From Pseudobacteriovorax sp. (GTDB taxonomy: Bacteria; Bdellovibrionota_B; Oligoflexia; Oligoflexales; Oligoflexaceae), in NCBI GenBank assembly GCA_013215145.1, contig JABSRP010000014.1:62001-126000 (forward strand): a stretch of DNA of 64,000 nucleotides, given 5' to 3'. A program made the translations under genes and the position numbers. The notes beneath the pieces were generated by a model. It made no database searches. It saw only the letters and a program-made list of their open reading frames with translations, and was not told the DNA's origin. The stretch's first letter is position 1, and each line of letters begins with the position of its first letter. Below, piece after piece: positions 42,013 through 44,746 of the stretch.

Positions 42013-42324
42013 CTACTTTCCTCTGCCGTTAAATTTTTTAATACGTTTTTGTTTCGTTAGAATGGTTTTTGCTTTCACATTGACTGTTTTTCTTCGTGAA
42101 ATAGAAGGTAGAGCTATTTCGTACAGTTGTTCAGCTATGATTTTGTCAAAATTTGCCCTGGTCGGCCCGCGCTCCCATAGGTTGACCAAGGTTTCCAAAA
42201 CGGGAGCTTGACGGTAGGACAAGCGTCGTCCACCAATATCCACTACAATTCCAATTCTAGGTAACAGTGGAAACTTCCTTGTTTTTGTTTTTTTGCTTCT
42301 TTCAACTCGAAAAACATTAATCAT
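42013..42324 (-). CDS. Small basic protein of unknown function
   Basis: 103 residues and strongly basic. A central segment LSYRQAPVLETLVNLWERGP resembles a winged-helix-like or transposed DNA-binding helix in composition only. It overlaps the end of the heptosyltransferase by 8 nt and is followed by the acidic gene after 3 nt. Basic plus acidic neighbours may interact, which is a guess. Confidence 0.5.
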   Translation of the reverse strand: MINVFRVERSKKTKTRKFPLLPRIGIVVDIGGRRLSYRQAPVLETLVNLWERGPTRANFDKIIAEQLYEIALPSISRRKTVNVKAKTILTKQKRIKKFNGRGK

Positions 42325-43357
42325 GATGGATCTCGCCTATCTGACGTTTCGATTGATTTGGCCTCCAATCCATCCTAACACCAATAGACTTTCTTTCACC
42401 TAAATTATTTAGAACCTCTGGCCACAAGGCCTCCACTGCATTCTCAACCTGTTGACTGGTAATATCAACCATTGATTCACCTTGGATAAACCTATGCCTT
42501 TGATTATCGGGGCACCAAGTAACTCCTATAGTTGGTCCATGGAGCTGGATCGAAGGAGTGTTGGTGGCCACAGCCACGTGGGACGGGCCATTGGAATTGC
42601 CAATAAACAGATCTGAATTTGCAAAAAAAGCCGCTAACTCGGCGAAACTTGTCTTCGGGGCCATATGAGTCTTCGTCTCACAATGATCTCTAATATCTGA
42701 TACGAACTCGTTTTCTCCAGGTCCCCAAACCCAAACCACGTGAGCTTCTTTCGCTCTTACTAAATAGTCTGCTAGACGCGCATAACAATCCCCAGGCCAT
42801 TGCCGTATCGGTCTACGATGGGTCGGTGACAGGCAAACGATCGGCCTACGATCGAGGAGGTTATGCTCTTTGACAAAGGACTGCCAAACTCCGGTATCTT
42901 CGGACGTCCAAGGCAAATACAACTGAGAAATATCACTATCAACGCCAAGTTCGGCCAAAAGCCTTTGTTTTTCGATGGCGATATACACTGGATGTTTGGG
43001 CTGTTCCACGATGTGAGTGTAAAACCACCTACGCCGAGAGGGAAAGGCCACCCTCTTTTCTGCTCCTGACAGATAAGTAAAAAGAGCACTGCGCGGATTA
43101 TACATAAAGTCGACAACCACATCGTAGCGACGTTTACGGAGCTGCTGCAACAAGGACAACTGCGGGCCAATACCCTTCGCTTCGTTATAAGTATAGAGCT
43201 TATCGATATCAGGATTTCCTGACAAAATAAGCCTGCCCATGTCGTGAGTTAAAAAGTCAATCTCTGCCGATGGGTGCTTTTCACGGGCAGCACGGAGAGC
43301 CGCCGTAGTAAGAAGGATATCACCTAATTGTCGTAATTGGATTAAAAGAATACGCAG
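42317..43357 (-). CDS. Family 9 glycosyltransferase (heptosyltransferase-like), CTG start
   Basis: 346 residues from the proposed start. LPS heptosyltransferases add ADP-heptose to the lipid A core. The N-terminal nucleotide-independent strand ILLIQLRQLGDILLTTAALR and the acceptor loop are typical; the donor-side motifs PTHRRPIRQWPGDCYA, SNGPSHVAVAT and QLHGPTIGVTWCP are in the C-terminal half. The first ATG, at 43240, would remove 39 residues of the family core. The frame from the upstream in-frame TAA to that ATG contains no ATG, GTG or TTG, but it has CTG at 43357 with GGGGGA 7 nt upstream. CTG is therefore my start. Substrate and heptose position are not assigned. Confidence 0.87.
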   Translation of the reverse strand: MRILLIQLRQLGDILLTTAALRAAREKHPSAEIDFLTHDMGRLILSGNPDIDKLYTYNEAKGIGPQLSLLQQLRKRRYDVVVDFMYNPRSALFTYLSGAEKRVAFPSRRRWFYTHIVEQPKHPVYIAIEKQRLLAELGVDSDISQLYLPWTSEDTGVWQSFVKEHNLLDRRPIVCLSPTHRRPIRQWPGDCYARLADYLVRAKEAHVVWVWGPGENEFVSDIRDHCETKTHMAPKTSFAELAAFFANSDLFIGNSNGPSHVAVATNTPSIQLHGPTIGVTWCPDNQRHRFIQGESMVDITSQQVENAVEALWPEVLNNLGERKSIGVRMDWRPNQSKRQIGEIHHD

Positions 43358-43425
43358 TGCCGAGTCCCCCAGTTATAGCTTAGGGGATGCGCTATCACAG
43401 TGCGTCGATAAATTCAATCATGTAA

Positions 43426-44283
43426 TTATAGGCCGACGGCCTTGAATGCAGCTTGAGCGAGCTCCTCGGCTTTTCGACTTCCCACAATCATTCCGATCAC
43501 GTTGTCTTCGAGTTCCCAAACCAACACGTTGAAGTAGTCGCTGGCGTAAGTCTGATAAAGGAGTCCCTGATAGTTTCCTGGTTGGCTATAAGGAAAGTCC
43601 TCCAACCGGCCTTCGAACTGATAAATGAATAACTTATCCTTTTGAGCCAAACTACCAAACTGAGCTACGGCAATTTTTTGCACTTCATAGTCGATAACCG
43701 CTGCCCCTTCGACCTGCCAATCGCTCTCCGGCGACTTAATGGGCTTGGCAGAAAATCCCAAATTGGGGTAGCGGGCGAAGTAATCCCTCAACTCGTCCAA
43801 TTCGTTAGTGGGAAAATCCAACCGGCCTTCCGGGTCTTCGATCATCACCGCCGATTCGTACACCAGAGAGTCCAAAGCAGAAAACTTTGGCTTGGATTTT
43901 GGACCAAGCCAATAGTAACCGCCAATTCCCAAGCCGATAACGGCCAGAGCAATCAGTCCTCCTCTTATGAGCCGAGCAGCAACCGACACACGAGCGAACT
44001 CTTCGATGTCTGACGCCTCATGATTTGCCCTTGCGGCGTCGTCTTCCAGTAGAACGTGAAGCTGATGGGTTAGCTCGTCATCGACAAAAACCTTTTGAAA
44101 TTCTAGCTGCAGTTGGCCCCTGGCAAGGCCGTAGTCCACAAGCCTTTGCTCGTTACCATTGGTACCCATCACGCTATCAAAACGTGCCTTGTCAGACTCA
44201 GAAAGACTACCATCTTGGTACTCCGACAAATAAGCAAAAAAGAATTGGTCGTCACTTAGGTTTGTTGCAGAATTATTGCTCAT
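43426..44283 (-). CDS. Putative membrane anti-sigma factor
   Basis: 285 residues. A cytoplasmic N-terminal part of about 105 residues (YLSEYQDGSLSESDKARF resembles the start of anti-sigma domains), one membrane helix at 107-126 (GGLIALAVIGLGIGGYYWLG), then a periplasmic region. There is no cysteine in the protein, so the usual ZAS motif HxxxCxxC is absent. It follows the sigma-like gene by 13 nt, and the order sigma then anti-sigma is typical. SD GGGAG is 7 nt before the ATG. Confidence 0.7.
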   Translation of the reverse strand: MSNNSATNLSDDQFFFAYLSEYQDGSLSESDKARFDSVMGTNGNEQRLVDYGLARGQLQLEFQKVFVDDELTHQLHVLLEDDAARANHEASDIEEFARVSVAARLIRGGLIALAVIGLGIGGYYWLGPKSKPKFSALDSLVYESAVMIEDPEGRLDFPTNELDELRDYFARYPNLGFSAKPIKSPESDWQVEGAAVIDYEVQKIAVAQFGSLAQKDKLFIYQFEGRLEDFPYSQPGNYQGLLYQTYASDYFNVLVWELEDNVIGMIVGSRKAEELAQAAFKAVGL

Positions 44284-44296
44284 GTTTCAGCTCCCT

Positions 44297-44746
44297 TTAC
44301 TTCATCGACAAAAGTAATTGCTGGCGACCATCGGCAAGGTAGCGTCGGACTTCCACAGGTTTCATCTTCAAAATACGCTCGGTCTCTCGCGGCGACATAC
44401 CCAATATGTCAACCGTGACTAGAACTAAACGGCAGTCTTCACTCAGTTTTTGTAAGGACGCCACTAAGCCAGGCTTTTCCGGGTTAGACTTGTCCGTGAA
44501 TTCCAGTAGGTTCTCCCAGGCTAGGCTGAGCAGCTTGAAGCGAATATCTTGGCTCTCTAGGTTCAGGAACTCATTGATCAGCTTGGTGACCCTGGCAAAC
44601 GTCGCGATTACGAGTTTTTTGGCCTGCTCTTCGTTTAAAAGCACCGTATAGCCAAAGCGATAGACCAGATCCGCCTCGGAGCATAGATTACTCACAAAGA
44701 AAGCGACGGCTCCCGGATCTTCTGTACTTCTAGCGGATGCACCCAT
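44297..44746 (-). CDS. Divergent ECF-type sigma factor
   Basis: 149 residues. The first half has a region-2-like helix set (SEADLVYRFGYTVLLNEEQA, then ATFARVTKLINEFL). The C-terminal half has a region-4 helix-turn-helix: LVTVDILGMSPRETERILK followed by VEVRRYLADGRQQLL. Both are weakly conserved, so it is divergent. GAGG lies 7-9 nt before the ATG. Together with the following gene, it forms a sigma/anti-sigma-like pair; target promoters are unknown. Confidence 0.7.
   Translation of the reverse strand: MGASARSTEDPGAVAFFVSNLCSEADLVYRFGYTVLLNEEQAKKLVIATFARVTKLINEFLNLESQDIRFKLLSLAWENLLEFTDKSNPEKPGLVASLQKLSEDCRLVLVTVDILGMSPRETERILKMKPVEVRRYLADGRQQLLLSMK

Follow-up and report, generated by a model that had tools for sequence, protein, structure and literature searches.

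A probable CTG start codon in a family 9 glycosyltransferase gene of Pseudobacteriovorax sp.

The Escherichia coli genes infC and pcnB begin with AUU, a rare near-cognate start codon that limits their expression. Among nearly 85,000 genes from model genomes, 20 (0.024%) are annotated as starting at CTG (PMC11983097), and structures of the E. coli 70S ribosome with CUG in the P site and a tRNA-fMet variant show weak pairing at the first position (PMC11497404). According to a study cited in PMC11983097, expression from CTG was approximately 10 times lower than that from TTG in E. coli reporters. The closest described case is the RepFIB rep gene (P307, pO157, F), which starts at a CTG that works with a good ribosome-binding site, as shown by the loss of function upon its change to CTC and by an earlier N-terminal analysis; its start is usually misannotated at a downstream GTG (PMC11983097). 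For the encoded enzyme, the reference is E. coli WaaC, heptosyltransferase I (2gt1, 2h1h), of glycosyltransferase family 9 (GT9). Its Asp13 is the proposed catalytic base, the D13A change lowers activity 4688-fold, and changing Asp261 and Lys192 to Ala causes 2027-fold and 926-fold losses, respectively (PMC5713226).

The locus described here lies on the minus strand of the window, a 64,000-nt stretch of a Pseudobacteriovorax sp. genome (7.39 Mb in 152 contigs). It resembles RepFIB rep in having a CTG with a good Shine-Dalgarno sequence, a misleading downstream canonical codon, and a low expression that has been proposed for rep (PMC11983097) and that we propose here. However, rep is a plasmid replication gene in which the CTG is widespread and proven, whereas the present case comes from one genome and is read from its sequence. 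With infC and pcnB it would share a rare near-cognate start that limits expression, but their AUU codons serve regulation, whereas this CTG is not kept in relatives.

The reading frame and its initiation signals

The frame opens after a TAA at 43375-43373 and closes at a stop at 42317. On the minus strand, the TAA is followed by CTG GGG GAC TCG GCA CTG CGT ATT CTT TTA ATC CAA, in which the second CTG, the proposed start, occupies 43357-43355, and then by TTA CGA CAA TTA GGT GAT ATC; the first ATG (43238-43240) comes further on, directly after a GAC. We scanned the frame from the TAA to 43240 and found ATG, GTG, and TTG all absent, exactly as an earlier, sequence-only reading had stated. The product would be 346 aa long from the CTG at 43357 (42317-43357) and 307 aa long from the ATG at 43240, which encodes residue 40. 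Two further conceivable rare starts, missing from that reading, are another in-frame CTG at 43372, immediately 3′ of the TAA, and an ATT at 43351.

A Shine-Dalgarno-like GGGGGA (43365-43370) ends 7 nt upstream of the CTG at 43357, in agreement with the spacing reported before. Against an assumed ACCUCCUUA tail, its predicted pairing energy is -8.4 kcal/mol, compared with a median of -5.75 kcal/mol over 68 gene starts on the same contig, and when 1500 random 20-mers were drawn from the window, 9 reached this strength at a spacing of 4 to 10. The tail used is the common 16S tail, assumed rather than read from the host: a search for the 16S gene did not find it in the assembly, nor did it find one in 5 of 14 control genomes. 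The ATG at 43240 has no Shine-Dalgarno match and the CTG at 43372 none of use (-0.5 kcal/mol), while the ATT at 43351 lies 13 nt after the GGGGGA.

The Shine-Dalgarno sequence is covered by a predicted hairpin (43365-43387, minus strand; UCCCCUA...UGGGGGA, 7 bp, -9.6 kcal/mol), which we count against the CTG start. As a regulatory element, this hairpin was rejected: with a z of about -1.3, equal stability in 22 of 200 shuffles, and no like hairpin in G001, the nearest genome searched (same family, different genus), it amounts to no more than chance. A -10-like TATAAC at 43377-43372, which would imply a near-leaderless message, was dropped because G001 lacks it. An 8-codon open reading frame (ORF), MIEFIDAL (43395-43421, minus strand), begins 4 nt past the stop codon of the preceding gene and finishes just short of the hairpin; its presence is probably due to chance.

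The upstream residues and the identity of the enzyme

Orthologues with 41-51% identity were found in 29 related genomes, several of which are named Oligoflexales, Oligoflexaceae, or Oligoflexus sp. Within the 39 codons 5′ of the first ATG (43241-43357), these orthologues share QLRQLGDI almost unchanged, a motif that contains Asp13 and corresponds to strand 1 in the model; the aspartate occurs in all 30 sequences (30/30). In a phmmer alignment, residue 1 of the full frame pairs with Met1 of WaaC (2gt1), and the GD at 12-13 meets G12-D13. The AlphaFold model of the protein (mean pLDDT 87, pTM 0.84) alternates strands and helices; its first 39 residues, modelled at a pLDDT of 86-94, comprise strands at 2-7 and 32-38 and helices at 11-16 and 18-27. 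In this model, the segment would supply strand 1 along with the remainder of the first Rossmann unit in the acceptor domain. Judged by its conservation, the segment upstream of the ATG at 43240 is coding.

These residues bear on the possibility that the start codon has been lost, leaving an early pseudogene or a truncated protein made from the ATG at 43240 only. A very young pseudogene would indeed look like this, with its start lost in an otherwise intact frame, but the gene carries no further disabling change. The truncated 307-aa protein would be without strand 1 and Asp13 and should thus be inactive, given the effect of D13A on WaaC (PMC5713226), and the ATG lies within the conserved domain without a Shine-Dalgarno match, whereas the CTG at 43357 has a strong one. 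We therefore regard the ATG at 43240 as unlikely to be the real start, and a lost start as very improbable. The earlier proposal that losing the 39 residues would remove the N-terminal strand of the acceptor domain is borne out by the alignment and the model, and the catalytic Asp13 would go with it.

The product matches PF01075 with 106.8 bits (gathering score, 22; E value, 1.4e-30), and the two-domain fold of its model and the N-terminal Asp13 likewise agree with GT9. Its closest NCBIfam model is heptosyltransferase III, at 143.7 bits against a cut-off of 170.2; it also falls below the equivalog cut-offs for heptosyltransferases II (90.1 versus 134.6) and I (82.9 versus 185.3). At the position of WaaC Lys192, all 30 sequences have an arginine (Arg185), and at that of Asp261, 27 of 30 have a serine (Ser255), the others having C, T, or A; a different GT9 gene in this genome (L003) retains Asp at the latter position. 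The GT9 clade carries NSNGPSH at residues 254-260 (42578-42598, minus strand), whereas the second position is D in heptosyltransferases.

The protein is like WaaC in its profile, its N terminus (Asp13 included), which aligns in register from the first residue, its donor-site Ser-His, and the Trp-Pro after the basic residue, and unlike it in belonging to a clade with Ser255 for Asp261 and Arg185 for Lys192 and in scoring below all heptosyltransferase cut-offs. The serine suggests that the donor differs or that the mechanism has changed. By profile and alignment, the protein is a GT9 enzyme, but the label of heptosyltransferase is only partly supported and cannot be given safely because of these scores and clade residues. 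Of the core-lipopolysaccharide (LPS) heptosyltransferase named in the sequence-only reading, the family assignment holds, and the specific activity is less well supported than assumed. An HldE-like kinase in the genome, a candidate enzyme of ADP-heptose synthesis that scores 342.9 bits and so falls slightly short of the 345-bit cut-off, and the neighboring kdsB would fit an LPS-core setting.

Start codons in related loci

Comparison with relatives, which the earlier reading had suggested, covered 33 distinct related loci from a set of genomes with no second member of the window's own genus. The CTG is not conserved: all 33 have ATG, GTG, or TTG either at the aligned position or no more than 12 codons upstream of it, and in 13 of them, as in WaaC, the start falls exactly at the position of the CTG at 43357. 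The start thus varies by a few codons among relatives, with a canonical codon always present and the window genome as the sole exception. In G001, whose cluster has the same gene order (sigma-like gene, 285-aa gene, GT9 gene, and 103-aa ORF), TTG is the sole possible start of the orthologue and aligns with the CTG (GGACTCGGCACTG---CGT over GGACTCAGCCTTGCAACGT), G001 having one extra codon after the start. The two codons are one T-to-C transition apart. A GGAC lies upstream of this TTG at the same distance as that between the Shine-Dalgarno sequence and the CTG in the window. Its pairing reaches only -3.0 kcal/mol, and the stronger Shine-Dalgarno sequence of the window may, on this one comparison, offset the weaker codon.

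Initiation could instead occur at the ATT at 43351, by analogy with infC and pcnB, or at the CTG at 43372, either of which would yield an essentially full-length protein, and the latter has an in-frame counterpart in G001. However, the ATT lies 13 nt from the Shine-Dalgarno sequence and is ATC in G001, the CTG at 43372 is without a Shine-Dalgarno sequence, and both disagree with the exact start of WaaC and of the 13 related loci. We consider these codons improbable starts.

The main rival is that the C at 43357 is an error, introduced by sequencing, by assembly, or by a mixture of strains, and that the true codon is TTG (or ATG or GTG). The division of the assembly into 152 contigs, the canonical start in every relative, and the single base separating the CTG from the TTG of G001 all speak for it, but the gene is otherwise open, conserved, and free of anomalies, and it lies on a contig of 228 kb. 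In addition, the per-base error of a short-read consensus is, as a rough estimate, below the 0.024% of genes annotated with CTG starts (PMC11983097). Such an error is therefore unlikely, if the most serious of the alternatives.

To see how isolated the case is, 445 kb of the window genome was compared with 790 kb of G001, giving 109 non-overlapping reciprocal orthologous ORF pairs. Conserved sequence extending more than 20 codons 5′ of the first ATG, GTG, or TTG was found in 1 of the 109, the GT9 gene, indicating an isolated case in a genome with an unchanged start-codon rule. The idea that this organism uses CTG starts generally was accordingly rejected, there being no second comparable case among these pairs, which also counts against the CTG start. 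Smaller upstream excesses in the comparison came from alignments that ran on 5′ of an evident Met start or from shadow ORFs on the antisense strand. The genome encodes IF3, which acts against starts such as CTG and is hence counted against its use.

The reading we prefer, with a probability of about 0.7, is that of an intact GT9 gene whose 346-aa product is translated from the CTG at 43357, most likely after a lineage-specific change from TTG. The conserved N terminus in a coding frame with no other canonical start, the Shine-Dalgarno sequence, the start codons of relatives, and the TTG of G001 support the CTG as the start, as the sequence-only reading had proposed. One transition would have converted an already weak TTG into CTG, a direction of change that we infer; the GGGGGA 7 nt upstream would position the ribosome on it, and the initiator tRNA would pair by its last two bases, making the first residue formyl-methionine. 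The CTG would then be a weak but used start in vivo, with an expression presumably low in view of the reporter difference between CTG and TTG cited in PMC11983097.

The gene cluster and its wider meaning

The GT9 gene belongs to a family-conserved cluster (42013-44746, minus strand) that is divergent from kdsB. Its first gene encodes a short sigma-70 region 4 protein of 149 aa (44297-44746; PF08281, 25.8 bits against a cut-off of 25.7), placed also by synteny. The second, co-directional and immediately upstream of the GT9 gene, encodes a 285-aa protein with one apparent transmembrane segment (43426-44283), syntenic in G001 and other family members; with no Pfam or NCBIfam match, it may be anti-sigma-like by its position. 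The last, a 103-aa ORF (42013-42324), is conserved in the family, sharing 58-66% identity with its counterparts in G001 and the g3 genomes, and likewise has no Pfam or NCBIfam match. Its ATG overlaps the GT9 stop (ATGATTAA; 42317-42324, minus strand), which suggests translational coupling; in G001, 25 nt lie between them.

The CTG might be a selected low-output start, in which a strong Shine-Dalgarno sequence within a leader hairpin and ribosomes arriving from the upstream gene would hold this envelope glycosyltransferase at a deliberately low level in this lineage. We find this hardly probable, and return to a weak but used CTG that most likely arose from TTG.

With conserved coding sequence 5′ of all canonical codons and a CTG at the homologous start behind a normally spaced Shine-Dalgarno sequence, the gene probably joins the known rare class of CTG-started genes; the CTG start is real in the sequence and probably so in the cell. 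It is a modest oddity of a known kind, and by itself it leaves the understanding of initiation unchanged. It nevertheless offers a clear and testable chromosomal CTG start from a little-studied bacterial order, in which gene callers restricted to ATG, GTG, and TTG would cut 39 residues, including the catalytic base, from a conserved enzyme. The link of this glycosyltransferase to a sigma/anti-sigma-like pair deserves attention.
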